The position numbers and the translations under genes were made by a program. A stretch of DNA of 64,000 bases, taken from NCBI RefSeq assembly GCF_900105615.1, contig NZ_LT630003.1:3353501-3417500 (forward strand), in the 5' to 3' direction. How positions within the stretch are numbered: the stretch's first letter is position 1; every line of letters begins with the position of its first letter. The notes under the pieces were generated by a model. It searched no databases. It worked only from the letters and a program-made list of their open reading frames with translations, and was not told the DNA's origin. The DNA comes from Lacrimispora sphenoides JCM 1415. GTDB lineage: Bacteria; Bacillota; Clostridia; Lachnospirales; Lachnospiraceae. Positions 16,191 through 41,153 of the stretch are shown here, piece by piece.

Positions 16191-16907
16191 CTAGTGGCGC
16201 AGGAGCGCACGAACCACTGCTTCCATGCTTTTTTCCTCTGCTTCGATCGTTAACCTTGGCTCATGAATGTCCTCCAGATAATGTGCATCGGAATTGCTGA
16301 TGATCCGGCAGCCCTCCAGATAAGGGTTCTTTTTCCTAAGCTCATGAAGCCTTGTAAGGTCCTTTACCTCCGCCGTTGCAAACTGACTGTCAGGAGGCAC
16401 AAAGCCTAAATTCGAGAGCAGGCTGTTGGCAGACTTATCGATATGGGCCGGGAACATGACGCCTCCATAGGACCGGACCAGGCCCCACAACTGGTCAAAA
16501 GAGATATCCACGCTGTTAATGAGAAGATTGGGCACTGTTCCGCATAGGACATCTTCCTTATTATATATCTGCTGCTTTCCAAATATTTCCTCATTGTTTG
16601 GAAATGCCATCAACCGTTCATACACGTACTTATCAAACTCCATAGCCTTATCAAGATGGTCAAACAGGCATACTGCATGTACCTCCTCCGATGTACAGAC
16701 TTCCATTCCCGGCAAAGCAACAATCCCATATTCCCTTGCAAAATGTAACACAGCCGGACAATTTTTACAGGAATTGTGATCCGTTACTGCGATCACGTCA
16801 AGCCCCTTTAAGGCAGCCATCCCCACAATATTTGCCGGAGTCATATCATCATCCCCGCACGGTGATAAGCAGGAATGGATGTGAAGGTCATAAGTTAAGT
16901 TCATCAT
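16191..16907 (-). CDS. PHP domain phosphoesterase-like protein
   Basis: 238 residues with PHP metal-binding motifs: DLHIHSCLSPCGDD at residue 7, VTDHNSCKN, PGMEVCTSEEVH, FPAHIDK and ISNSDAHYL. PHP proteins are metal-dependent phosphoesterases or nucleases; the substrate here is unknown. It ends a five-gene minus-strand operon with DRTGG proteins, a hydrogenase-like Fe-S protein and an RsbW-like ATPase, and its start overlaps the preceding gene by about 20 bases. Two adjacent ATGs (16907, 16904) are possible. A role in signalling linked to the divergent hydrogenase is inferred. Confidence 0.85.
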   Translation of the reverse strand: MMNLTYDLHIHSCLSPCGDDDMTPANIVGMAALKGLDVIAVTDHNSCKNCPAVLHFAREYGIVALPGMEVCTSEEVHAVCLFDHLDKAMEFDKYVYERLMAFPNNEEIFGKQQIYNKEDVLCGTVPNLLINSVDISFDQLWGLVRSYGGVMFPAHIDKSANSLLSNLGFVPPDSQFATAEVKDLTRLHELRKKNPYLEGCRIISNSDAHYLEDIHEPRLTIEAEEKSMEAVVRALLRH

Positions 16908-17238
16908 GGGGCAGCCTTTGATAGATCAGCAGGGCGGCCTCAAAGATGGGCAGCTCTGTTTTTAAAACCGTAATTTTCTGGTCCGCCGCCTTTTTCACGG
17001 CCGCTTCGTCAAGAGCAGTACCCTCTGCCATGACTACGCAGGCAGCGTCGGCAAGTGAGGCTACCGCAAGGGTATTTACATTACCCATCACCGTTACCCA
17101 TGCACACCCCTCTGCCGCTCTTCCCATTGCAATACTCAATAAATCACAGCAAAACGGTTTTTTAATCTCACGGTCAAGCTCTTCTCCTTCATTGATAACA
17201 TTAAATAAATTGCTGTCAATCAGTTCTCTTACTGTCAT
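16888..17238 (-). CDS. DRTGG-type domain protein, 116 aa
   Basis: The protein begins MTVRELIDSNLFNVINEGEE and continues with a small Rossmann-like alpha/beta domain (CDLLSIAMGRAAEGCAWVTV, VASLADAACVVMAEGT), matching the DRTGG domain that occurs next to CBS or phosphotransacetylase domains and binds nucleotides or effectors in some proteins. I start at ATG 17238 (AAGGA 6 bases upstream), overlapping the end of the hydrogenase-like gene by 23 bases. A second DRTGG gene occurs in the same operon (19193-19540). Confidence 0.75.
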   Translation of the reverse strand: MTVRELIDSNLFNVINEGEELDREIKKPFCCDLLSIAMGRAAEGCAWVTVMGNVNTLAVASLADAACVVMAEGTALDEAAVKKAADQKITVLKTELPIFEAALLIYQRLPHDELNL

Positions 17239-18631
17239 TGCGCTTCCTTCTCCCTTCTTTTCTGTCAAGCTGAGTCATTTCATCAGAAATTCTCTCGATA
17301 TATTTTGTCATGACCTTGAATTTCTCATAGCTGTCTCTGTCGCCTTCCACAATATCGGCCGCCAGCCTGGAAACTTCCTCCGCCAGCTTATGCACATTGT
17401 CCCGTAGGAAATAAACGCAGTCGGATTCCACTGCTTCTCCACGCACAATGTCCTCGGCCAGGGCTTTGCAGGTAGGTGCACCGCAGGAACCGCAGTCTAA
17501 GCCGGGAAGCTTCTTTAACAGCCGTTCCACCTGATTAAGCCTTGCAAAGCTTTCCATCATGGTTTCGCCTAAATTAAACACCGGCTCATAGTGAACCTCC
17601 TTGGTCCACTTTACCAGTTCCTCTGCTCCCGCCTGCATATGGCTCCTTGCCACAGGCATGTACTTTCGAAGCCGTTTGAGCTTTACCTCCGCTACATATG
17701 GATTTTCTACCGTGAGCACGCCGCCCACGCAGCCGCCGTTGCAGGCACTGAGCTCTACAAATTTCAGGTTCGTGAATTTCTGATCCTCCATATCTTCCAG
17801 AACCCTTATGACATTTTCAATGCCATCTGCTGCCAGGTAATCCTCGGTAAAGAGGCCGCTTGCCTCTCCTCCGCTGCGCCCCCAGCTGACTCCGATTTTA
17901 CCTGAAGTCCCAATTTCAGGCGGATCATCACCCACCGCCTTCATACAGGATAAAAGCTGGGGATATAAGTCCTTTATGGCAAGCACCTTATTCACTTCAC
18001 TGCGTTCCGTTCCCAGAGGGGATTTCACATAGGTCACCTTGGATGGACAGGGAGAGATGAATATGATTCCGATCTTATCCCTCTCAAGTCCGGTTTTTTC
18101 CATTGCTTTTTGGGCTGCAAGGATGGCTGCCACCTCCACCGGAGGATTTAATGGCAGGAGGTTTGGGATTAAGTTTGGGAACTTGACTCTTATGAGCCGC
18201 ACCACGGAAGGACAGGCGGTGCTGATGGCCGGAAGCTTATCCGGATTTTCACTTAAATATTCCCTGGTAGCCTCGCTTACCAGCTCCGCTGCCGCGCTTA
18301 CTTCAAATACATCATCAAACCCCATCATAAGAAGAGCATTTAAGACGATATTCACATCATCCAGATTGTTAAACTGGCTGTATAGGGATGGCGGCGGCAA
18401 TGCTACCGTATATTCATACTGTTTCAAAACCTCCAGCTTGTCATATGTAGCATGTTTTGCATGGTGAGGACATACCCGGATGCACTCCCCGCAGTCAATG
18501 CAGAATTTACTGTTGATCTGTGCCTTGCCGTTTCTCACCCTGATGGCCTGAGTAGGGCACCGTTTGATACAGTTGATACACCCCATGCAAAGCTCTTCAT
18601 CAAGTCTTACTGAATGATAAAATTTATCCAC
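17216..18631 (-). CDS. [FeFe]-hydrogenase-like Fe-S protein of the putative sensory/group D type
   Basis: 471 residues. Two ferredoxin motifs (CMGCINCIKRCP from Cys15; CIDCGECIRVCP from Cys44), then a hydrogenase H-cluster domain: L1 is STACPSV (Cys140), L2 SPCPSK (Cys195), L3 ELSACNGGCVGG (Cys297, Cys301). All four H-cluster ligand cysteines are kept, but the proton-transfer cysteine before Cys140 is Ala, and the L2 Glu is lost. A C-terminal four-cysteine Fe-S domain (Cys380, 383, 388, 405) follows. This fits a sensor rather than an efficient catalyst. GTG start with GAGG 7 bases upstream. Operon: DRTGG, RsbW-like, this gene, DRTGG, PHP. Confidence 0.85.
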   Translation of the reverse strand: MDKFYHSVRLDEELCMGCINCIKRCPTQAIRVRNGKAQINSKFCIDCGECIRVCPHHAKHATYDKLEVLKQYEYTVALPPPSLYSQFNNLDDVNIVLNALLMMGFDDVFEVSAAAELVSEATREYLSENPDKLPAISTACPSVVRLIRVKFPNLIPNLLPLNPPVEVAAILAAQKAMEKTGLERDKIGIIFISPCPSKVTYVKSPLGTERSEVNKVLAIKDLYPQLLSCMKAVGDDPPEIGTSGKIGVSWGRSGGEASGLFTEDYLAADGIENVIRVLEDMEDQKFTNLKFVELSACNGGCVGGVLTVENPYVAEVKLKRLRKYMPVARSHMQAGAEELVKWTKEVHYEPVFNLGETMMESFARLNQVERLLKKLPGLDCGSCGAPTCKALAEDIVRGEAVESDCVYFLRDNVHKLAEEVSRLAADIVEGDRDSYEKFKVMTKYIERISDEMTQLDRKEGRRKRNDSKRTD

Positions 18632-18655
18632 CTTTTTACCTCATTTCCTCTTTAT

Positions 18656-18767
18656 CGCCCACAGCCTTTGGGCATAAAAGTATACCGAAGGATGTTTCCG
18701 CGTTTCGCCCACGTCCTCTGGGCATAAAGGTATATCCCCGAAGGGTGTTTCCACATTATCGCCCAGC
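18656..18767. repeat. Two tandem imperfect 50-54 base repeats plus the start of a third
   Basis: Copies begin CGCCCAC at 18656 and 18706, and a truncated third at 18760 (CGCCCAGC). Each full copy contains a small hairpin (GCCCA with TGGGC) followed by GGCATAAA and GAAGG-TGTTTCC. They fill the gap between the RsbW-like gene and the hydrogenase-like gene on the transcribed strand, so they may act as RNA processing or spacing elements. Confidence 0.6.
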
Positions 18768-18770
18768 TTC

Positions 18771-19193
18771 CTATATATTCACCATCATACGAATGGTCGT
18801 TCCTTTTCCTATTACCGTATCGATCTCCATCTCATCCGAATACTTTTTCATATTCGGAAGCCCCATTCCGGCTCCAAAGCCCAGGGAACGCACTGCATCC
18901 GGCGCAGTGGAATATCCTGCCTGCATGGCCAGTCCGACATCTGGTATTCCTGGGCCCACATCAGCCAGGATCATCTCGATCCTGTCCGTAGTTATGTTAA
19001 CGGTTATCTCTCCCCCCTGCGCGTGGATCACCATATTGATCTCCCCTTCATACATGGCAATTGCCACCTTGCGCACTGCTTCCGGGGTGACCCCCATCTT
19101 TTTCAGCTTGCTTTTCACATCACTGCTGGCTTCCCCTGCTCTTGTAAAATCATCAGGTGAAATCCTGTAGTGAAACGTTATCATATCCGTCAT
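18771..19193 (-). CDS. RsbW/SpoIIAB-like ATP-binding protein
   Basis: 140 residues with the GHKL fold of anti-sigma factor kinases: VRKVAIAMYEGEINMVIHAQ (N box, with Glu-Asn), IEMILADVGPGIPDV (G1, DxGxG), and SLGFGAGMGLPNMKKYS (G2). RsbW-type proteins phosphorylate STAS antagonists or bind sigma factors; no STAS or sigma gene is in this window. The start overlaps the upstream DRTGG stop (TGATG). Together with the PP2C phosphatase at 38242-39426 it suggests a partner-switching-like circuit, which is inference. Confidence 0.85.
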   Translation of the reverse strand: MTDMITFHYRISPDDFTRAGEASSDVKSKLKKMGVTPEAVRKVAIAMYEGEINMVIHAQGGEITVNITTDRIEMILADVGPGIPDVGLAMQAGYSTAPDAVRSLGFGAGMGLPNMKKYSDEMEIDTVIGKGTTIRMMVNI

Positions 19194-19540
19194 CAGATCG
19201 CACCTCCGTGAAGTCCTGCCTCATAAAGCAGGCCGCAGGCCGAGAACATACGATGCCCGGTGGACAGGATAATGATTCCCCGCTCCTCTGCCATCAAAAG
19301 CATGGACTCATCCGGCTTCTTGCCTCTGACAAATACAATACAGACAATGTCAAGCATCTCCGCCGTACGGATTACCTGGGGGTTGCATAGTCCCGTAAGA
19401 AGGACCGAATGATCCTTGGAAAACGCCAGCACATCGCTCATCATATCAGAACCGCAGGCACTCTTTACCTCCTCATCCAGGTGGTCCTCTCCTGCAAGCA
19501 CCTTGGCACCCAGTTTATCTCTTACATCTCTCACTGTCAT
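19193..19540 (-). CDS. DRTGG domain protein, 115 aa, first gene of the signalling operon
   Basis: Begins MTVRDVRDKLGAKVLAGEDH and carries the DRTGG-like pattern SACGSDMMSDVLAFSKDHSV, VIRTAEMLDIVCIVFVRGK and ILSTGHRMFSACGLL. It is a paralogue of the 116-residue gene at 16888-17238. I prefer ATG 19540, which has GGGGAG 7 bases upstream, over a GTG at 19594. It is divergent from hydC with about 230 bases between; that region should hold both promoters, but I see no convincing -35/-10 pair in it. Confidence 0.78.
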   Translation of the reverse strand: MTVRDVRDKLGAKVLAGEDHLDEEVKSACGSDMMSDVLAFSKDHSVLLTGLCNPQVIRTAEMLDIVCIVFVRGKKPDESMLLMAEERGIIILSTGHRMFSACGLLYEAGLHGGAI

Positions 19541-19774
19541 ATTGATGCTCCCCTTTCCTTCTTCCTTCCAGCTTTTGGGCAACTTGATTCGCACTATTCA
19601 CACAATTCGTATCATTATTAACTATTATAACATAAATAGGGCGCCAGGTATAGAAAGATTCCACGGAAGGATTGTTATTTTTTTATCGAATGTTGCCGAA
19701 ACTATAGATTTTTCATTCATAACATGTTAAAATATCATGTACATTGCATAAGCAACATATAAGGAGGTTATAAA

Positions 19775-20269
19775 ATGGCTTGTAAAACACAAGGCGTCCA
19801 ATTTAACGGGACCAAGGAGCAGGAAGCTGCTTTAAAGGAAGCAATCGCCCTGCTCAAAGACACAAAAGGATCTCTCATGCCTATCATGCAAAAGGCACAG
19901 GAGATTTACGGCTATCTTCCAATCGAAGTCCAGACCATAATTTCTGACGAAGCGGGTATTCCCCTTGAGAAGATTTATGGCGTTGCAACTTTTTATGCCC
20001 AGTTCGCACTTCAGCCAAAGGGCAAGTACCAGGTATCTGTCTGTCTAGGAACTGCTTGTTATGTTAAAGGTTCCGGAGACATCTTCCATAAGCTCGAGGA
20101 AATCCTTGGGATTACCAACGGCGAATGTACACCGGATGGAAAGTTCTCCCTTGATTCCTGCCGCTGCGTAGGTGCCTGCGGCCTGGCTCCCGTCATGATG
20201 GTGAACGGGGATGTTTACGGTAGGCTGACCACTGATGATGTTCAAGACATACTTGCAAAGTACGAATAG
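19775..20269 (+). CDS. hydC: NADH-dependent [FeFe]-hydrogenase subunit HydC (NuoE-like, [2Fe-2S])
   Basis: 164 residues of the thioredoxin-like [2Fe-2S] ferredoxin family: an N-terminal helical part (LMPIMQKAQEIYGYLPIEVQ) and four cluster cysteines in CLGTACYVKGSG and CRCVGACGLAPV. In trimeric hydrogenases this subunit sits with HydB on the NAD side and passes electrons. AAGGAGG precedes the start. First gene of the plus-strand operon hydC, GHKL ATPase, ferredoxin, hydB, hydA. Two unrelated-looking small genes lie between hydC and hydB, an arrangement seen in other clostridia. Confidence 0.92.
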   Translation: MACKTQGVQFNGTKEQEAALKEAIALLKDTKGSLMPIMQKAQEIYGYLPIEVQTIISDEAGIPLEKIYGVATFYAQFALQPKGKYQVSVCLGTACYVKGSGDIFHKLEEILGITNGECTPDGKFSLDSCRCVGACGLAPVMMVNGDVYGRLTTDDVQDILAKYE

Positions 20270-20281
20270 AAAGTCACGCTT

Positions 20282-20839
20282 ATGATGACAGAGATTTCTT
20301 TAAATATCCTGGATGTGGCGGAAAACTCCACGCGGGCAGGGGCTACCCTGGTTACCATTCTTGTTTCCGTCGAAACGGCTGCAGACAAACTGATTGTCAC
20401 CATTGAGGACAACGGCTGCGGCATGACAAAGGAGCAGGCACTTCAAGTGACTGATCCCTTTTTTACCACCAGGGAAACCAGAAAAGTGGGCCTTGGCGTT
20501 CCGTTTTTTAAATATGCGGCGGAAAGCACAGGCGGAAGTTTTTCCATTGAGTCAGAGCTGGGTAACGGCACGGTAGTAACCGCTGTTTTCGGACTATCCC
20601 ATATCGACCGTATGCCCCTTGGTGATATAAACAGTACCATTGAAACCCTTATCACCTGTCATCCGGACACAGACTTTCTCTATATCTATCGTTACAACCA
20701 AGCGTCGTTTGAGCTGGATACCAGAGCTTTCCGCGAAATTTTAGGGGATATCCCCTTTGATACCCCGGAGGTATCGGCTTATATTAAGGAATATCTCAGT
20801 GAAAACAAATTGGAAACAGATGGAGGCGCGGCCATTTAG
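20282..20839 (+). CDS. GHKL ATPase domain protein in the hyd operon
   Basis: 185 residues. A histidine-kinase-type ATP-binding domain without a phosphoacceptor domain: ILDVAENSTRAGA (N box), EDNGCGMTKEQ (G1), TRKVGLGVPFFKYA (G2). The C-terminal 70 residues (from about 115, LGDINSTIETL) have no obvious motif. It follows hydC by 12 bases and lacks a strong ribosome binding site, suggesting translational coupling. It may be the second kinase-like component of a redox or hydrogen signalling set along with the divergent RsbW-like protein. Confidence 0.85.
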   Translation: MMTEISLNILDVAENSTRAGATLVTILVSVETAADKLIVTIEDNGCGMTKEQALQVTDPFFTTRETRKVGLGVPFFKYAAESTGGSFSIESELGNGTVVTAVFGLSHIDRMPLGDINSTIETLITCHPDTDFLYIYRYNQASFELDTRAFREILGDIPFDTPEVSAYIKEYLSENKLETDGGAAI

Positions 20840-20873
20840 GTCCGTCGGATCAAAGTTGAATTGGAGGATTAAC

Positions 20874-21251
20874 ATGAAGACTCTTGAAGAATTAAAAGCA
20901 ATTCGGGAAAAGATGCAGGGTCAGGTCAGCATGCGTGGCGAAGATCACGGACGTACCCGGATTCTGGTCGGCATGGCTACATGCGGAATAGCCAGCGGAG
21001 CAAGACCTGTACTTAATACATTATCAAACCTGGTTCAGGAAAACAATATGACAGATCGTTTTTCTGTTACCCAGACCGGATGCATCGGTTTATGTCAATA
21101 TGAACCGATCGTTGAAATTCTGGAACCCGGTAAAGAAAAAGTTACTTATATCAATATGACCCCGGAAAAAGCAGAAGAAGTTTATAAAGAGCATTTACTG
21201 AGTGGCCACGTTGTTCAAAACTATACGTTAGCTTCTGCTGACATTAAATAA
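20874..21251 (+). CDS. Thioredoxin-like [2Fe-2S] ferredoxin
   Basis: 125 residues starting MKTLEELKAIREKMQGQV. Cluster cysteines lie in MATCGIASGA and in TQTGCIGLCQYEP, the pattern of stand-alone NuoE-like ferredoxins that accompany bifurcating hydrogenases. Ribosome binding site GGAGG 6 bases upstream of ATG 20874. It lies 12 bases before hydB and probably carries electrons for, or senses the state of, the HydABC complex. Confidence 0.85.
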   Translation: MKTLEELKAIREKMQGQVSMRGEDHGRTRILVGMATCGIASGARPVLNTLSNLVQENNMTDRFSVTQTGCIGLCQYEPIVEILEPGKEKVTYINMTPEKAEEVYKEHLLSGHVVQNYTLASADIK

Positions 21252-21263
21252 GGAGGAAATAAG

Positions 21264-23051
21264 ATGTATCGTTCACATGTATTAGTTTGCGGCGGCACAG
21301 GATGTACTTCCTCTGGAAGCCAGCAGATTATGGTAAAATTAAGAGATGAATTAAAGAATCAGGGTCTGGATCAGGAAGTATCCGTTGTACAGACCGGCTG
21401 CCACGGCCTTTGTGCATTAGGCCCGATCATGATCGTTTACCCGGATGCCACCTTCTATGCAATGGTTAAGGAAGATGATATTTCTGAAATTGTAACCGAG
21501 CACTTATTAAAAGGACGTCCGGTGGAAAGACTACTTTATGATGAGACTGTGACTCCGGCAGGCATCAAGGCTTTAAGTGATACCGATTTCTATAAAAAAC
21601 AGCACAGGATCGCTCTGCGCAACTGTGGTGTCATCAATCCGGAAGAGATTGAAGAATACATTGGTACCGGCGGATATCAGGCTCTTGGTAAGGTTCTTAC
21701 TGAGATGACTCCTGACGAAGTGATCCAGACTCTCCTAGACAGCGGATTAAGAGGACGAGGCGGCGCAGGTTTCCCAACCGGCCTCAAATGGAAGCTGGCC
21801 AAGCAAAACGACGCAGATCAGAAGTATGTCTGTTGTAACGCAGACGAAGGCGACCCAGGCGCATTCATGGACCGTTCCGTATTAGAGGGTGATCCTCATG
21901 CTCTTTTGGAGGCCATGACCATTGCCGGCTATGCCATCGGTGCTTCCCAGGGTTACATCTACGTACGTGCTGAGTATCCCATCGCAGTACAGCGTTTAAA
22001 GATCGCCATTGACCAGGCCAAAGAGATGGAGCTTTTAGGCGACGATATCTTTGGATCCGGTTTCTCCTTTAACATTGACCTTCGTTTGGGTGCTGGTGCC
22101 TTCGTTTGCGGCGAAGAGACCGCACTTATGGTTTCCATCGAAGGCAACCGCGGTGAGCCAAGACCTCGTCCTCCGTTCCCGGCACAGAAAGGTTTATTCG
22201 GCAAGCCAACCATCTTAAATAATGTTGAAACTTATGCAAATATCCCGCAGATCATCTTAAACGGATCCGAATGGTTTGCTTCCATGGGTACTGAGAAATC
22301 CAAGGGAACAAAGGTATTCGCTTTAGGCGGAAAAATCCATAACACCGGACTGGTAGAAGTTCCTATGGGAACTACTCTCCGTGAGATCATCGAAGAAATC
22401 GGCGGCGGCATTCCAAACGGCAAAAAGTTCAAGGCTGCCCAGACCGGCGGACCATCCGGCGGCTGTATCCCTGTGGAACATTACGATATTCCTATTGATT
22501 ACGACAACCTGATTGCAATCGGCTCCATGATGGGTTCCGGCGGTCTGATTGTTATGGATGAAACCGACTGTATGGTTGATATCGCAAAATTCTTCCTGGA
22601 ATTCACCGTAGAAGAATCCTGCGGAAAATGTACGCCATGCCGTATCGGGACAAAGCGTATGCTGGAGATCCTCGATAAGATCACCAAGGGACAGGCAAAG
22701 CTGGAAGATTTAGACCGTCTGGAAGAGTTGTGCTACTATGTAAAAGAAAACTCTGCCTGCGGCCTTGGACAGACAGCACCAAACCCGGTTCTGTCAACCC
22801 TTAAGTTCTTCCGCGACGAATACAATGCCCATATTGTCGATAAGACATGTCCGTCTGGTGTGTGCAAAGCGCTGCTCTCCTATCATATTGATGCAGAGAA
22901 ATGTAAGGGCTGTACCCTTTGTGCAAGAAACTGTCCGGTTAACGCTATCTCCGGTTCCGTTAAGAACCCACATGTCATTGATCCTGAGAAGTGTATCAAG
23001 TGCGGCGTATGTATGGAGAAATGTAAGTTTGACGCTGTTTACAAGAAATAA
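21264..23051 (+). CDS. hydB: NADH-dependent [FeFe]-hydrogenase subunit HydB (NuoF-like flavoprotein)
   Basis: 595 residues. N-terminal thioredoxin-like [2Fe-2S] domain (CGGTGCTSSGS, QTGCHGLCALGP), central NuoF FMN/NAD module (GLRGRGGAGFPTGLKW, CNADEGDPGAF, LGAGAFVCGEETAL), the NuoF [4Fe-4S] site (ESCGKCTPCRIGTKR), and two C-terminal ferredoxin clusters (CKGCTLCARNCP, CIKCGVCMEKC). This is the electron-bifurcating or NAD-linked subunit that exchanges electrons between NAD(H), ferredoxin and HydA in the cytoplasm. GGAGG upstream. Followed directly by hydA. Confidence 0.95.
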   Translation: MYRSHVLVCGGTGCTSSGSQQIMVKLRDELKNQGLDQEVSVVQTGCHGLCALGPIMIVYPDATFYAMVKEDDISEIVTEHLLKGRPVERLLYDETVTPAGIKALSDTDFYKKQHRIALRNCGVINPEEIEEYIGTGGYQALGKVLTEMTPDEVIQTLLDSGLRGRGGAGFPTGLKWKLAKQNDADQKYVCCNADEGDPGAFMDRSVLEGDPHALLEAMTIAGYAIGASQGYIYVRAEYPIAVQRLKIAIDQAKEMELLGDDIFGSGFSFNIDLRLGAGAFVCGEETALMVSIEGNRGEPRPRPPFPAQKGLFGKPTILNNVETYANIPQIILNGSEWFASMGTEKSKGTKVFALGGKIHNTGLVEVPMGTTLREIIEEIGGGIPNGKKFKAAQTGGPSGGCIPVEHYDIPIDYDNLIAIGSMMGSGGLIVMDETDCMVDIAKFFLEFTVEESCGKCTPCRIGTKRMLEILDKITKGQAKLEDLDRLEELCYYVKENSACGLGQTAPNPVLSTLKFFRDEYNAHIVDKTCPSGVCKALLSYHIDAEKCKGCTLCARNCPVNAISGSVKNPHVIDPEKCIKCGVCMEKCKFDAVYKK

Positions 23052-23068
23052 TGGAGGGAAATTGGATC

Positions 23069-24814
23069 ATGGAGAATATCACAATAAAAATCAATGGCAT
23101 GGACGTAAGCGCTCCGGCAGGCTCCACCATCCTGGAAGCTGCCAGACTGGCCCATGTTGAGATACCGACTTTATGCTTTTTAAAAGATATGAATGAAATC
23201 GCTGCCTGCCGTATCTGTACCGTTGAAATTAACGGCGGCAAAATGGCCGCTTCCTGCGTTTACCCCATTAATCCGGGCATGGAAGTAAAGACCAATACAC
23301 CTAAACTTCGTGACTACAGAAAGAAAACGCTTCAGCTGATCCTTTCCAATCACGACCGTTCCTGTCTCTCCTGTGTCCGCAGCGGAAACTGCGAATTACA
23401 GACCTTATGTAAGGAACTGGGAGTTGATGTGGATGATTATTACGATGGGGCAAAAACACCTTCTACCCCAGATGAAAGTGCAGCCCATATGGTACGGGAT
23501 AACAGCAAATGTATCCTTTGCCGCCGCTGTTCCGCTGTCTGTGAAAAAGTTCAGGGAATCGGGGTGATCGGACCGAATGAACGTGGATTCGCTACCGTCA
23601 TCGGCTCTGCCTTTGACAAGGGACTTGGTGAAACAAGCTGCGTATCCTGCGGACAGTGTATCGCTGTCTGTCCTACCGGCGCTCTTTATGAGAAGAGCAG
23701 CATTGACGAAGTGGCTGCTGCCATTGCAGATCCGTCAAAGCTCGTGATCGTCCAGACCGCTCCGGCTGTACGTGCAGCCCTGGGAGAAGAATTCGGTTAT
23801 TCCATCGGAACCAATGTGGAAGGCCAGATGGTTGCCGCTTTAAGAAGACTGGGCTTTGACAAGGTATTTGATACCAACTTCAGCGCCGATTTAACCATTA
23901 TGGAAGAAGCACATGAATTCATTGACCGCGTGCAAAACGGCGGCGTCCTTCCATTAATCACCTCCTGCTCCCCAGGATGGATCAAATATTGTGAGCACTA
24001 CTTCCCGGATATGACAGAGAACTTATCATCCTGCAAATCCCCGCAGCAGATGTTCGGCGCCATTGCCAAATCCTACTATGCGGAAAAGATGGGCCTGAAG
24101 CCAGAGGATATTGTATCTGTCAGCGTAATGCCATGTACCGCTAAGAAATTTGAAATCGGAAGAGATGACCAGGATGCCAACGGCTCTCCTGACGTAGATT
24201 ATTCCATGACCACCAGAGAGCTGGCCAGAATGATCAAACAGTCAGGAATCCGGTTCACAGAGCTTCCTGACGAAGATTTCGACACACCTTTAGGCCTTGG
24301 TACCGGAGCAGCTGTTATCTTTGGAGCCACCGGCGGCGTTATGGAAGCAGCTTTAAGAACGGCTGTAGAAAGCCTGACCGGGGAAGAGCTTGAAAGACCT
24401 GACTTCACCGATGTTCGTGGAACAGAGGGTATCAAGGAAGCTACCTACCGTGTAGGCGATCTGGATGTAAATGTTGCAGTCGCTTCCGGTCTCGGCAATG
24501 CAAGGGAACTCCTTAACCGGGTGAAATCCGGAGAGGCAAATTATCACTTCATCGAGATCATGGGATGCCCCGGCGGATGTGTAAACGGCGGCGGACAGCC
24601 TCAGCAGCCTGGCTTTGTACACAATACAACGGATATCCGCGGCCTGCGCGCTAAGGTTCTTTATGATGTAGATGCTGCAAAGACCATTCGTAAGTCTCAC
24701 GAGAACCCTGCAATCAAGGAACTTTATGAGACCTACCTTGGAGAGCCGGGAAGTGAAAAGGCTCATCACCTGCTTCATACAACTTATGTAAAGAGAAAAA
24801 TAAACGAAATTTAA
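23069..24814 (+). CDS. hydA: [FeFe]-hydrogenase catalytic subunit HydA (trimeric, bifurcating type)
   Basis: 581 residues from ATG 23069 (GGAGGG 10 bases upstream). N-terminal [2Fe-2S] domain (Cys36 to 63), a His-ligated cluster region (NHDRSCLSCVRSGNC near 104-117), two [4Fe-4S] clusters (CILCRRCSAVC, CVSCGQCIAVCP), then the H-cluster domain with L1 TSCSPGW (298-304), L2 MPCTAKKFE and L3 EIMGCPGGCVNGG. It makes or oxidises H2 at the H-cluster. L1 has Ser where the classical motif is TSCCP; I recall this as a variant of this subgroup. The hydE, F and G maturases are not in the window. Confidence 0.95.
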   Translation: MENITIKINGMDVSAPAGSTILEAARLAHVEIPTLCFLKDMNEIAACRICTVEINGGKMAASCVYPINPGMEVKTNTPKLRDYRKKTLQLILSNHDRSCLSCVRSGNCELQTLCKELGVDVDDYYDGAKTPSTPDESAAHMVRDNSKCILCRRCSAVCEKVQGIGVIGPNERGFATVIGSAFDKGLGETSCVSCGQCIAVCPTGALYEKSSIDEVAAAIADPSKLVIVQTAPAVRAALGEEFGYSIGTNVEGQMVAALRRLGFDKVFDTNFSADLTIMEEAHEFIDRVQNGGVLPLITSCSPGWIKYCEHYFPDMTENLSSCKSPQQMFGAIAKSYYAEKMGLKPEDIVSVSVMPCTAKKFEIGRDDQDANGSPDVDYSMTTRELARMIKQSGIRFTELPDEDFDTPLGLGTGAAVIFGATGGVMEAALRTAVESLTGEELERPDFTDVRGTEGIKEATYRVGDLDVNVAVASGLGNARELLNRVKSGEANYHFIEIMGCPGGCVNGGGQPQQPGFVHNTTDIRGLRAKVLYDVDAAKTIRKSHENPAIKELYETYLGEPGSEKAHHLLHTTYVKRKINEI

Positions 24815-36734: not shown

Positions 36735-38186
36735 TTAATGTCTGTGCATCGCTACTTCTTCAAGGCCCTGGTTTCGTAGGTTCTCGTGAACTTCTCTTCC
36801 ATCCGCCTGTTTGATCAGCAAATCACGGGCTTTCTTTGCTTCATTCTCACTCTTATGCCTGCTGGGGCCGCCTACACAGCCTCCCACACATGCCATTCCT
36901 TCTATGAAGTCTCCTGGAAGCCTTCCAATCTTAAGAAGCATCAGAGCCTTCTTGCACTCAGCCGCTCCATTGCATTTAAGGACTTCGATATCCGTACTTT
37001 CTCCCGTCTCCTTTAAGCATTCCAGAACAGCCGCAGTCACACCGCCGCCATTTCCAAAACGCTTACCAAATACGGATCCTGCCTGGTAGGTGTTTTCTTC
37101 CGGCAAAAGCTCTACGCCCTTTGATGCCATCATTGCCTGAATTTCTCCCAGGGTCAGGGCATAATCCGCGTTGTCTTTAATATTTAAATCCAGGGTTTCG
37201 CTTTTCTTAGCAATACACGGCCCGATGAATACGGTGATCGTCTCCGGGTCCTTTTCCTTCAGCATTCTTGATACAGCGCACATAGGAGATACGGTGGTTG
37301 ACATATTCTCAAGGAGCATAGGATAATGCTGTTTAATCATGTTCACAAATGCCGGACAGCAGGAGGTCGTCATCTTCTTGCCTTCCTTATAAGCTTCTGC
37401 CCATTCCGCCGCTTCTGCTGCAGCGGTCAGATCGCCGCCAAGGGCAACCTCAACCATATCCTGGAAACCGATTTTCTTTAAAGCGGTTCTCCAGCTTGCC
37501 ATGGTGATTTCCGGGCCGAACTGGCCTTCTGTCGCCGGAGCGACCATGGCAACCACCCGTTTCCCGGCGTTAATAAGATTAATCACATCCACCAGGAATG
37601 TCTTGGAATCAATGGCGCCAAAGGGGCAGCCATGAATGCAGGCTCCGCACTGGATGCATTTGCTCTCGTCAATGACTACAATGCCGTTCTCGTCCATGGT
37701 GATGGCATCCACCGGACAGCTTTTCTTACAGGGACGGGTCAGATCTGCAATGGCGTTATAAGGACATGCCTGGGAACACTTGCCGCATTCCTTGCATTTA
37801 TCAGGATCAATATAAGCACGATCACGTCCCATGCTGATAGCGCCAAAATTACAGGAACCCTGGCACGCCTTACCCATACACAGCTGGCAGTTATCGGTTA
37901 CCACATACCGGGCGATGGGACAGTCTTCACAGGCAGAGCTGATTACCTGAACGACGTTCTTCGTATCCCTTCCGCTGGGGCAGAGACCTTCCGCCAGGCG
38001 GATTCTCTCTCTGATGATTTCCCGTTCCCTGTAAATGCAGCAGCGGAACTGGGCCTTGGGACCTGGAATGATATCATAGGGAATCTCATTTCTTTTCTCC
38101 TCCAGCTTTCCCTCCCATGCAAGTTTCGCCACTTCATTTAAAACCTGATGCTTTATGCGAAGTAATGTCGCATCATTTGTTGCCAT
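36735..38186 (-). CDS. [FeFe]-hydrogenase, monomeric group B type
   Basis: 483 residues from ATG 38186 (AAGGAGG upstream). N-terminal ferredoxin-like clusters with many cysteines (CQLCMGKACQGSCNFG, CKECGKCSQACP, CKKSCPVDAI, CIQCGACIHGCPFGAI), then an H-cluster domain with intact motifs: L1 TSCCPAF, L2 GPCIAKKSE, L3 EGMACVGGCVGGP. Cytoplasmic, probably ferredoxin-dependent H2 turnover. It lies downstream of the sensory operon (TrxFd, HydS, PP2C) on the same strand with a 55-base gap, so it is a likely target or partner of that sensor. Confidence 0.92.
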   Translation of the reverse strand: MATNDATLLRIKHQVLNEVAKLAWEGKLEEKRNEIPYDIIPGPKAQFRCCIYREREIIRERIRLAEGLCPSGRDTKNVVQVISSACEDCPIARYVVTDNCQLCMGKACQGSCNFGAISMGRDRAYIDPDKCKECGKCSQACPYNAIADLTRPCKKSCPVDAITMDENGIVVIDESKCIQCGACIHGCPFGAIDSKTFLVDVINLINAGKRVVAMVAPATEGQFGPEITMASWRTALKKIGFQDMVEVALGGDLTAAAEAAEWAEAYKEGKKMTTSCCPAFVNMIKQHYPMLLENMSTTVSPMCAVSRMLKEKDPETITVFIGPCIAKKSETLDLNIKDNADYALTLGEIQAMMASKGVELLPEENTYQAGSVFGKRFGNGGGVTAAVLECLKETGESTDIEVLKCNGAAECKKALMLLKIGRLPGDFIEGMACVGGCVGGPSRHKSENEAKKARDLLIKQADGREVHENLRNQGLEEVAMHRH

Positions 38187-38241
38187 ATTCTTCCTCCTTG
38201 TAACTTCCACGTATCGTGGCTCTGTGAATATCTATCCAAAT

Positions 38242-39426
38242 TCAATAATAGGTTACCGTAACCCTTTTCCCCATTTCTTCCACTACGTGCTTTAACTGCT
38301 CCACAAGATTCTGGCGGATGCCCAAATCAAAGGGCAGGCCAGGATTCTGATAAGCGCTGTTAATTGCCATTCCCACGTATAACTTAAGCTCCGTACAATC
38401 CTCAATGATCATCTTCGCCACCATGGAAGCTCCATTTGGCTTATCTAACTCCAGGAAAAAATCCTCTGTGACAGATTCATTCATTACATAACGCCTTAAA
38501 AGCTTTAAAACTTTATTTAATGTCAAAACACCTTCCGTAACCAGCTCAATACCGTCAATATAAGCGATTGGCGGAATGTCCGGGTCATCGTAATCCAGGG
38601 AAACAGACAGCTCCCTTTCAGTTATCCTGGAAACAATATTTGCACTGGTTCCTCCGCAAACGACTTTCTTAGCGGTTTCATCTCCTGACAGGAAATCATT
38701 CACCATCACGCAGTCGTCCTCCGTCTTCCTGGGTGGGCCTGTCATCAAATGCACCGGCTTGCGGTCAATGATCCTCATAACGGCAACCGTGGTATCATCG
38801 CCGGGCCGGTACTGATACAGTTCATCACAGGCACTGGTTAGCGCAGTAGCAAGACGAGCAGCAGATATGGTCAGGCGGTACTGCTTCACCGCATAAGAAG
38901 CAACATCCTCCCACAGCCAGCCAAAATTCAGGAGCTTCCCCACTCCTGCATGGATGGTCCCGTCACTCATCAGGATCAGCGCGTCCCCTTTTCTCACCTT
39001 AAAACGGTACTCATTGATTTTTTTATCCCTGATAACCCTGGTGTTTCGCGGTATGGAAACCAGGCTCCCATCCCTGATGAAGATACAGCCGGGATTATCA
39101 AATTCTACCAGATAAGCTTCACCGTCATGAAACACCTGAAGGATGCTGAAGGTGGAATAGGCTACCTGGCGCACCTGACATACCGGAAGAGTCTCCACAA
39201 TGGTTTCCACACACTCTTCCAGGGTCGCACCGTTTAGAAACATGGTTCCTAAAATCTTAGAGGTCATGGTGGCGAGAATGTTGGCCTTTACCCCGCTGCC
39301 CATACCGTCGGCGAGTATCATAATATTGGAATCCTCGGTCTGCAATAGTTCAACCTTATCTCCGCACAATACTTCCTTGAATTTATTCAGGCTTGTGTAT
39401 GCAACATCTACGGTAACCCCCATCAC
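38242..39426 (-). CDS. SpoIIE-type PP2C serine phosphatase paired with HydS
   Basis: 394 residues. A PP2C domain with metal-binding Asp in MILADGMGSGVKANILAT (about 30-50), ALILMSDGTIHAG and YRPGDDTTVAVMRI. The C-terminal 160 residues (after about 235) hold an uncharacterised domain with VVCGGTSANIVSRI. It likely dephosphorylates a signalling protein in response to the hydrogen- or redox-sensing HydS, whose gene overlaps it by four bases. No substrate protein is encoded nearby; the RsbW-like protein at 18771-19193 suggests what the circuit may look like. Confidence 0.88.
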   Translation of the reverse strand: MMGVTVDVAYTSLNKFKEVLCGDKVELLQTEDSNIMILADGMGSGVKANILATMTSKILGTMFLNGATLEECVETIVETLPVCQVRQVAYSTFSILQVFHDGEAYLVEFDNPGCIFIRDGSLVSIPRNTRVIRDKKINEYRFKVRKGDALILMSDGTIHAGVGKLLNFGWLWEDVASYAVKQYRLTISAARLATALTSACDELYQYRPGDDTTVAVMRIIDRKPVHLMTGPPRKTEDDCVMVNDFLSGDETAKKVVCGGTSANIVSRITERELSVSLDYDDPDIPPIAYIDGIELVTEGVLTLNKVLKLLRRYVMNESVTEDFFLELDKPNGASMVAKMIIEDCTELKLYVGMAINSAYQNPGLPFDLGIRQNLVEQLKHVVEEMGKRVTVTYY

Positions 39427-41153
39427 TTAACCTCACCTTCACTTCCCTCATCCAGTAAGGATCTGCAAAGCTTCGTCAAGGTAGTCTTGGTCTCCGCCGT
39501 AGTTTCCCCTAAGAGGCCAGCAATTTCCTGGGCCACCATCATCTGCTTGTGAATGACCTTCTGTGCCAGGGCAATGGTTTCCAGTTTCTGTTCGTAGTCC
39601 TGTTTTGCCTGTTCTTCCTCTTTGGTGATATCTATGAAGGTGGCTAATACCACATCTTCTTTTTCAATGTAGAGAATATTCTGAAGAGTGGAAATATGGT
39701 ATTCCCCATAAGTCACCTTTTTTCCATGGATCTTCTGGTGGGTATTATAAACCCACTGGAAATCCGAAGGATCAATGAGTTCATATAAATACATGGTCAA
39801 AGCTTCCTGCCTTGTTTTTCCAAAATACTTTTCTCCCACTGCAGAATACTCTAAAATTTTCATATCTTTATCCACGATCAGAACAATATTGGGAGAGGTT
39901 TGCATCACGAGATTGGATAATGACTCTGATTTTTCATGCATAAATGGAATGCACATATTAAGCTCTGCCTTTTTCTGGAATACCGCTATGGCCTTTTCCC
40001 GGCAGGTGGAATAACCGCAGGCGCCGCAGTTTAATTCATCCTCCGGCCTGGTCTTTCCGGTCATTTTTAATATCTCCTGAATCTGGGCCTCTGTTGGCAT
40101 GGCATCTTTGGGTGCACGGTCCAGGAACAGCTTCCGAAAGGAGAGTCGTTCCATAACAGGGGCCAGCTCCTCCCTTGGTACCGGATCCTTTTCAATGGAT
40201 TCCTCCATATCCAGCTTGATCTTAAATCTGGATACATTCTCGTCCTCTACGGTGGGTCCCTTGATGCAGCCGCCGGAGCACATATTCATCTCAATAAAGC
40301 AGCCCTTAATTCCTCCCCGCAGCATGCTTTCACACAAATCCATGCAGTTAAGGCAGCCATGGACATAAAATTTCCGGTATCCATCCCGTTCCTCTTCTGT
40401 AGCCAGAACAGAATTTACCACTCCATTGGTAACCGGATAAAGGCGGTTGATTCTGGGGTTCCTTTCAAACGGGATATCCTCGCAGTCTTCAATGGTGATT
40501 TCCTCTTCAGAAAGCCACCTGGAAATATCATTGAAATTCAGGACAGCATCAATATAGCCATCATGACGGGGGTCTCCAGCTTCCTTTTTCTTTGCGATGC
40601 ACGGTCCAAGGAAAACCACCTTTACCTCAGTTCCCAATTCTTTTTTTAACATCTTTCCATGGGCAATCATAGGAGATACCACAGGAGCCATATATGGAAT
40701 CAGCTGGGGGTAATAAATCTCGATCAGATCATTGACGCTGGGACAGCAGGTGGTGATGATGTTCTCCATCTTCCCTTCACTTAAAAGCCTGGCATATTCC
40801 GCTGTTACAACAGCCGCCCCTTCCGAAGTCTCCCTTACGTCATAAAATCCCAGCTTCCGCAGCGCACCGTTAACCTGGCCGATGGTCTTATAGTTTAACA
40901 ATCCCATATAAGACGGTGCCAGGGAGATAACCGTCCGGATCCCAGCGTCAATGTAACTCTTTACCAGATCCAGATCACTTATGAGAGTTTTTGCTGACTG
41001 AGGACATACCTGCATGCATTTTCCGCATAAAATGCACTTATCCGGCATAATTTCAGCCCGCTCATCTTTAATCATGACTGCCTTGACTTCGCAATTACGA
41101 ATACATTTATAGCAATGTTTGCATTTAGTAGCCTTGAAATCAATGATTCCCAT
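39423..41153 (-). CDS. hydS: Sensory [FeFe]-hydrogenase with PAS domain (group C type)
   Basis: 576 residues: two ferredoxin motifs (CKHCYKCIRNCE, CILCGKCMQVCP), an H-cluster domain with L1 TTCCPSV, L2 GPCIAKKKE and L3 EMNMCSGGCIKGP, a four-Cys Fe-S domain (CGACGYSTCREKA), a PAS domain at about 425-530 (SPNIVLIVDKDMKILEYSA) and a C-terminal coiled coil. This is the known layout of hydrogen-sensing hydrogenases that signal through a PP2C phosphatase. Operon order TrxFd, hydS, PP2C, with 2-base spacing and a 4-base overlap, fits the described group C modules. Confidence 0.92.
   Translation of the reverse strand: MGIIDFKATKCKHCYKCIRNCEVKAVMIKDERAEIMPDKCILCGKCMQVCPQSAKTLISDLDLVKSYIDAGIRTVISLAPSYMGLLNYKTIGQVNGALRKLGFYDVRETSEGAAVVTAEYARLLSEGKMENIITTCCPSVNDLIEIYYPQLIPYMAPVVSPMIAHGKMLKKELGTEVKVVFLGPCIAKKKEAGDPRHDGYIDAVLNFNDISRWLSEEEITIEDCEDIPFERNPRINRLYPVTNGVVNSVLATEEERDGYRKFYVHGCLNCMDLCESMLRGGIKGCFIEMNMCSGGCIKGPTVEDENVSRFKIKLDMEESIEKDPVPREELAPVMERLSFRKLFLDRAPKDAMPTEAQIQEILKMTGKTRPEDELNCGACGYSTCREKAIAVFQKKAELNMCIPFMHEKSESLSNLVMQTSPNIVLIVDKDMKILEYSAVGEKYFGKTRQEALTMYLYELIDPSDFQWVYNTHQKIHGKKVTYGEYHISTLQNILYIEKEDVVLATFIDITKEEEQAKQDYEQKLETIALAQKVIHKQMMVAQEIAGLLGETTAETKTTLTKLCRSLLDEGSEGEVK

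Follow-up and report, generated by a model that had tools for sequence, protein, structure and literature searches.

A putative sensory [FeFe]-hydrogenase and five co-inherited partner genes beside the hyd operon of Lacrimispora sphenoides

Introduction

Among the closest described relatives of the system analyzed here is TamHydS of Thermoanaerobacter mathranii, a putative sensory [FeFe]-hydrogenase of group D (M2e) (PMC8163306, PMC13104023, PMC6984386). We analyzed a stretch of 64,000 nucleotides from Lacrimispora sphenoides JCM 1415 (contig NZ_LT630003.1, positions 3,353,501 to 3,417,500), hereafter the window, in which a minus-strand gene set is divergent from a hydC-GHKL-[2Fe-2S]-hydB-hydA operon. 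The set encodes a PHP-family phosphoesterase, a small DRTGG-fold protein (DRTGGb), an [FeFe]-hydrogenase with group D features (HydS), an RsbW/SpoIIAB-like GHKL protein and another small DRTGG-fold protein (DRTGGa). Our results support the view that these five genes and the GHKL ATPase gene inside the hyd operon ('G') form one co-inherited module centered on HydS, in many relatives next to hydABC.

How group D hydrogenases relay a signal has been puzzling in the literature, as they have no PAS domain (PMC8163306) and the C-terminal cluster of TamHydS is reported not to be reduced by H2; the latter source also cites an H2-induced change in the secondary structure of TamHydS (PMC13104023). An AraC-family flank has been named for TamHydS, whereas none of the window's ten proteins in the two gene sets matches AraC; PHP is not mentioned in the available text of the same source (PMC8163306). 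Sensory hydrogenases of group C (M2f) include HfsB of Thermoanaerobacterium and HydS of Ruminococcus albus, and hfsA/hfsB deletions alter fermentation products and adhE expression, which lends genetic support to the idea that hydrogenase-like proteins can act in regulation (PMC5707799, PMC11837493). The locus described here is like these in encoding a hydrogenase-like protein beside a serine phosphatase or kinase; unlike the group C proteins, which carry PAS, its HydS has none.

A 2012 survey lists M2e genes a few loci before hydABC (for example, Cthe_0335 and Cthe_0340-0342) and proposes a histidine/serine kinase as the regulatory route; its available text names the kinase only, not DRTGG or PHP (PMC3561251). 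The sensor, its kinase neighbor and its place near hydABC are already in print (PMC3561251, PMC8163306). Within the accessible text of the open-licence PMC literature we did not find the DRTGG and PHP partners, the six-gene set or the fusions described below, and DRTGG appeared together with a hydrogenase in PMC10102598 and nowhere else. Near-obligate partners and natural fusions name a candidate signal path for group D HydS.

HydS has the features of a group D hydrogenase

According to Land et al., group D (M2e) hydrogenases lack Cys299, have a hydroxyl residue in place of Met353 and carry a C-terminal CX2CX4CX16C motif, together with two N-terminal [4Fe-4S] motifs and no PAS domain (PMC8163306). 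We aligned HydS (17216-18631, minus strand; Pfam Fe_hyd_lg_C 94.9 bits, FeS 50.5 bits) with HydA1 of 8a6t and with 71 relatives. C140, C195, C297 and C301, which an earlier sequence-only reading of this DNA had taken for the four H-cluster ligands, do align with them and are Cys in 72/72 sequences. The alanine that it had seen in place of the proton-transfer cysteine (C299 in CpI) is Ala139 by alignment, and this position is Ala in 56 of the 72. Ser193 occupies the Met353 position, which is Thr in 38 sequences, Ser in 33 and Ala in 1. The C-terminal motif (C380, C383, C388, C405) is kept in 72/72, and the cysteines of two N-terminal [4Fe-4S] motifs in 69 to 71 of the 72, with gaps and one Ser making up the rest. 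Pfam gave no PAS match in HydS at E 0.1.

In a 69-row tree of the hydrogenase domain, HydS did not fall outside the [FeFe]-hydrogenases: it sits in its own clade of 32 rows (support 100/100), apart from the A, B and C rows and separate from the clade of a PAS-bearing hydrogenase encoded elsewhere in the window. Because A, B and C were assigned according to the best-matching protein of the window, and published group D sequences are not among the rows, the group D assignment rests on sequence features. HydS thus has the features of a group D (M2e) putative sensory [FeFe]-hydrogenase, a type of sensor already known.

A co-inherited six-gene module

To determine how the genes are distributed, we scored them in 148 genomes sampled evenly across the class; 121 of these have a completeness of 90% or more and a contamination of no more than 5%. 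Group-D-type HydS (HydS-D) was present in 72 genomes (73 matches less G040, whose match, in locus L107, falls with the group C rows), the PHP subfamily of this locus in 70, the RsbW-like protein in 71 and HydA (E <1e-150) in 118. HydS-D and PHP were found together in 70 genomes, HydS-D only in 2, PHP only in 0 and neither in 76 (Fisher 1.4e-40). For HydS-D and the RsbW-like protein the corresponding counts were 70, 2, 1 and 75 (9.4e-39). Among the exceptions, HydS-D occurs without PHP in G071, where the contig ends, and in G037, which has no PHP match; HydS is at a contig end in both genomes that have it without the RsbW-like protein (G049, G084); and in G132, which has the RsbW-like protein without HydS-D, the contig stops just past the kinase. 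HydS, kinase and PHP are nearly always together in these genomes, and the cluster is not one found mostly without a hydrogenase; HydA is present in 68/72 HydS-D genomes.

The sequence-only reading had placed G (20282-20839, plus strand; HATPase_c 53 bits) with the hyd operon. G is present in 79/148 genomes, with HydS-D in 71 and without it in 8, while 1 genome has HydS-D only and 68 have neither. Among HydA-positive genomes, G occurs in 67/68 with HydS-D versus 8/50 without, a distribution that rules out a general hydABC subunit. A second GHKL-type ATPase is thus present as had been read, but it follows the sensor rather than HydA, so that the module counts six genes. Beyond the class, 120 of 299 phylum-level genomes have a HydS match at E 1e-40; a scan of viral contigs with HydS found no relative.

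Gene order and neighborhood in relatives

We compared gene order in 71 loci seeded by HydS and 80 loci seeded by PHP (the best 80 of at least 536, from named genomes), labeling genes by best single-sequence matches and refined profiles; these two sets and the phylum set may overlap in taxa. Both seeds recover the same arrangement, DRTGGa-RsbW-HydS-DRTGGb-PHP. Upstream of HydS, 67 of the 71 HydS-seeded loci have the kinase and 66 have DRTGGa, and wherever either is missing the contig ends; downstream, 66 have DRTGGb and 62 have PHP. All four partners are present in 57. The other misses reflect contig ends, insertions of 4 kb (L045, L049), a real loss (G037) or parts lying on another contig (L047, L056, L057, L070; compare L203-L206). 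In the 80 best PHP-seeded loci we found DRTGGb in 78, DRTGGa, kinase and HydS in 72 each and all four in 71; L150 is rearranged. Fifteen of 20 loci hand-picked from elsewhere in the phylum keep the five-gene order, counting L214, in which HydS and DRTGGb are fused, and L220, in which HydS is split over two frames. When loci were pooled, window included, the kinase was within 900 bp of HydS in 177/185; 5 loci end before the kinase, and of the 3 others scored without it, L232 has one and L211 and L222 do not. Nine pooled loci were scored without DRTGGb, but L108 and L162 have it, and in the rest it is displaced, rearranged, cut or on another contig. A chance neighborhood is ruled out by co-occurrence, by the order recovered from two seeds and by the fusions described below.

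The module's position relative to the hyd genes varies. Of the HydS-seeded loci, 37 have it before them on the same strand, 9 have it between hydC and the remaining hyd genes, 5 have it followed by G without hydC, 2 have it divergent, 2 have it after the operon and 16 show no hyd genes; some of the last are contig cuts, since L203, L204 and L205 show DRTGGb-PHP or PHP beside hyd genes on another contig. The divergent arrangement of the window is the commonest among the best 80 PHP-seeded loci (44/80). The fetched stretch contains hydA or hydB in 46/71 HydS-seeded and 60/80 PHP-seeded loci. All six Rnf subunits (NCBIfam) are encoded after the module and G in L104, an RnfD-like neighbor occurs in seven further loci, and dihydroorotate dehydrogenase genes come after the module in L061.

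The nine loci with the module set between hydC and the rest of the operon, and the presence of G inside the hyd operon of the window, would fit a non-signaling role in which the module assembles or maintains HydABC and its GHKL ATPases are chaperone-like. We regard this as improbable: HydS-D is absent from 50 of 118 HydA-positive genomes, the module of L104 adjoins Rnf genes in a stretch that has neither hydA nor hydB, and HydS itself keeps the full set of H-cluster cysteines.

Natural fusions

Several relatives join neighboring module genes in a single open frame. DRTGGa is fused to RsbW in L246, where Pfam calls the ATPase only and the DRTGGa part is recognized by a custom profile (89 bits); RsbW is fused to HydS in L224, and HydS to DRTGGb in L214 and L228, with domains confirmed by Pfam in these three. 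PHP and GHKL share one frame in L208, L235, L236, L237, L238 and L240, with Pfam confirming the domains in L208 and L238; in L239, from a seventh genome of the same family, they occupy separate frames. Each kind of fusion is confined to one genome family and is best counted as one event, and because the phylum loci were hand-picked, one set of genomes being chosen for long HydS frames or membership of the family of L208, these numbers do not tell how frequent fusions are. As a whole, the fusions point to a physical chain DRTGGa-kinase-HydS-DRTGGb and, in addition, a PHP-GHKL pair.

Kinase, DRTGG and PHP proteins

The RsbW-like protein (18771-19193, minus strand; HATPase_c_2 43.1 bits) scores 60 bits against TIGR01925 SpoIIAB, under the cut-off of 135. 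In an alignment to 1til, its Glu49 and Asn53 fall on SpoIIAB positions 46 and 50; we take these to be the N-box Glu and Asn of a GHKL serine kinase. E49, E51, N53 and H57 are kept in 68/68 aligned sequences, and the protein presumably also resembles RsbT. In GHKL fold and conserved N-box residues the putative kinase of the module is like those of RsbW/SpoIIAB partner switching; unlike in those systems, the module has no STAS antagonist or PP2C, and has two DRTGG proteins and a PHP protein instead. In G, Asn15 and the glycine boxes are kept in 54/54 sequences, but Glu is not constant at position 14, and by that residue G is not an RsbW-type kinase. In one relative of the kinase (L165:4002-4823) the N terminus is extended by 132 residues, for which Pfam gives no match at E 0.01; the start codon may be placed too early.

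The sequence-only reading had called two DRTGG proteins. Pfam places DRTGGa (19193-19540, minus strand) above the DRTGG cut-off of 25.2 (26.8 bits) and DRTGGb (16888-17238, minus strand) below it (PF07085, 21.8 bits), yet the predicted models of both match DRTGG structures; the AlphaFold2 (AF2) model of DRTGGb has a pLDDT of 93, and Foldseek pairs it best with 3l2b (1.2e-4), then 2ioj (4.5e-4). DRTGGa is listed with a GTG start at 19594 and DRTGGb with a TTG start at 17268, but ATG starts at 19540 and 17238 are probable, as Met is nearly invariant there in relatives. Numbered from the listed starts, Asp50 and Ser53 of DRTGGa are invariant in 67/67 sequences and Asp42 and Ser45 of DRTGGb in 69/69. 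In the predicted models this Asp and Ser, three apart, lie where a helix begins after a strand, an arrangement which we take to recall the STAS phosphosite. Fold searches with DRTGGa also returned MurE/MurF, LpxD and HPr-kinase N-terminal domains, which we treat as no more than fold neighbors.

The PHP protein (16191-16907, minus strand; Pfam PF02811 34.7 bits, cut-off 26.4) has H9, H11, D43, H44, E69, H77, H155, D207 and H209 identical in 65/65 aligned sequences, presumably the metal-ligand pattern. Below threshold, NCBIfam matches it to TrlF, CehA, nucleoside bisphosphate phosphatase and RNase RNM, among others, and most solved structures matched by its profile are enzymes acting on nucleic acids, EndoQ and an exoribonuclease being examples.

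These affinities raise the question of whether the module uses a nucleotide messenger, with the DRTGG proteins binding an adenine nucleotide, the PHP protein hydrolyzing a nucleotide in place of a phosphoprotein and the kinase-like protein reading adenylate state together with the redox signal of HydS. Such a scheme would suit the mostly nucleic-acid and nucleotide enzymes among the PHP matches. It would also suit the structural relatives of both DRTGG proteins, among which is the CBS-DRTGG regulatory region of a pyrophosphatase. The module proteins are like that region (3l2b, 3l31) and AF1212 (2ioj) in having the DRTGG fold; unlike the CBS pyrophosphatase, they are a stand-alone pair flanking a hydrogenase gene, with no pyrophosphatase domain. 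CBS domains fused before the RsbW-like kinase in L215:10173-11081 (two) and L226:8104-8955 (one called) hint at adenine-nucleotide input. Against this, no synthase is apparent in the module, and just 5 of 179 kinases have a long extension, in two of which Pfam calls CBS. We consider the messenger scheme rather unlikely.

A possible signaling mechanism

We lean slightly toward a mechanism in which the six products work as one cytosolic module, with HydS gating the SpoIIAB-like kinase and the output tuning HydABC or Rnf. HydS would change state with H2 or a reduced carrier. HydS and DRTGGb would form a core onto which the kinase docks, so that HydS could gate the kinase through direct contact. 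The most likely phosphoryl acceptors would be the DRTGG proteins, at their invariant Ser. These proteins would serve as the switch or as a nucleotide-sensing part, and the PHP protein would reset the signal. The enzymes tuned would be those balancing ferredoxin, NADH and H2, namely HydABC here and Rnf in some relatives. Should HydABC and Rnf indeed be under its control, the module would be a switch of wide occurrence in the H2 metabolism of fermentation. The broader proposal is possible but doubtful: that this is a new class of partner switching across the clostridial phylum, in which an [FeFe] site serves as sensor, DRTGG stands in for STAS and PHP for PP2C, setting ferredoxin/NADH/H2 flow via HydABC and Rnf.

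A number of observations weigh against this mechanism. None of the ten proteins has a STAS, PP2C, HisKA or receiver domain by Pfam (HisKA and receiver at E 0.1), which also distinguishes the module from a two-component system. At the position of the invariant Ser of DRTGGa, the DRTGG protein AF1212 has a Ser as well, which weakens the phosphosite reading; this residue may instead be structural or ligand-binding. HydS-D is missing from the 50 HydA-positive genomes noted above, and in 25/71 HydS-seeded loci, contig ends included, neither hydA nor hydB appears in the stretch retrieved. Some relatives have incomplete sets: G037 has truly lost PHP, L138 has the other four genes without HydS, L152 has DRTGGb-PHP only, and at L155:7951-8757 a PHP of this subfamily stands alone, with no other module gene found nearby. 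Elsewhere in the phylum, L210 and L223 are without a detected DRTGGa, and L224 has the kinase-HydS fusion and DRTGGb with neither DRTGGa nor PHP nearby.

The remaining two phylum loci, L211 and L222, likewise count against the mechanism: beside hydABC they have HydS-DRTGGb without kinase, DRTGGa or PHP. Each is the second copy in a genome (G165 or G428) with a fuller module elsewhere. That HydS and DRTGGb can stay with hydABC on their own, and that TamHydS is active and reversible, although slow (PMC8163306), would be compatible with HydS being a hydrogenase of slow turnover, trading electrons with HydABC or Rnf while its neighbors modulate its activity. The loss of the proton-transfer Cys and the near-obligate linkage to kinase and phosphoesterase genes make this very unlikely.

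The sequence-only reading had described the locus as a complete H2 or redox signaling chain. What stands of this is the co-inherited six-gene module, with its gene content, order, fusions, invariant residues and predicted folds; no output component or substrate was identified, so that "complete" goes further than these results. We infer the sensing of H2, complex formation, kinase gating, the substrate, the roles of the DRTGG and PHP proteins and an output acting on HydABC.

Other features of the window

All ten genes, with the order, strands and families given by the sequence-only reading, were borne out, the families by Pfam and NCBIfam. The remaining plus-strand genes are hydC (NuoE-like; 19775-20269, PF01257 172.3 bits), a thioredoxin-fold [2Fe-2S] protein (20874-21251; PF01257 30.6 bits on 20868-21251), hydB (21264-23051, PF01512 154.9 bits) and hydA, the group A catalytic subunit (23051-24814; NCBIfam group A6 NF040763 902.9 bits, cut-off 765). 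The host genome is a single 5.3 Mb contig with 5 matches to the [FeFe]-hydrogenase domain, and when named genomes are compared by PHP and HydS, Lacrimispora amygdalina (L114) and [Clostridium] citroniae (L117) are among the nearest, as would probably be the case for an organism of Lachnospiraceae type.

A second sensory locus of hfs type lies at 36735-41153 on the minus strand, about 17 kb from the group D module. It comprises a further hydrogenase (36735-38210), which defines the B rows of the tree, a SpoIIE-type PP2C (38242-39426) and the PAS-bearing hydrogenase (39423-41153). This PP2C, about 19 kb from the module and beside a sensory hydrogenase, could in principle be the phosphatase opposing the module kinase, which would join the window's two sensory loci by partner switching, and in L106 such a PP2C is directly upstream of DRTGGa. 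Across the 148 genomes, however, hfs-type PP2C and HydS-D are statistically independent (both in 28, HydS only in 44, PP2C only in 20, neither in 56; Fisher p 0.12), which does not support a general partner phosphatase, and we judge this pairing extremely unlikely. The HydS of L106 is just 36% identical to that of the window.

In the divergent region between DRTGGa and hydC (19541-19774, no strand), the best Rex-like site is a weak match with 3 mismatches (19672-19689); 9 such sites were found in the window versus 5.0 expected, which is not significant as evidence of Rex control there. Among 41 relatives with a usable divergent region, 10 have a Rex-like site with at most 2 mismatches, versus 13 of 2100 mononucleotide shuffles.

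HydA has 7q4v_A as its closest solved relative by sequence. It carries TSCSPGW, with Ser where the TSCC motif has its second Cys; Ser stands there in 13/17 group A rows, and 7q4v is likewise.

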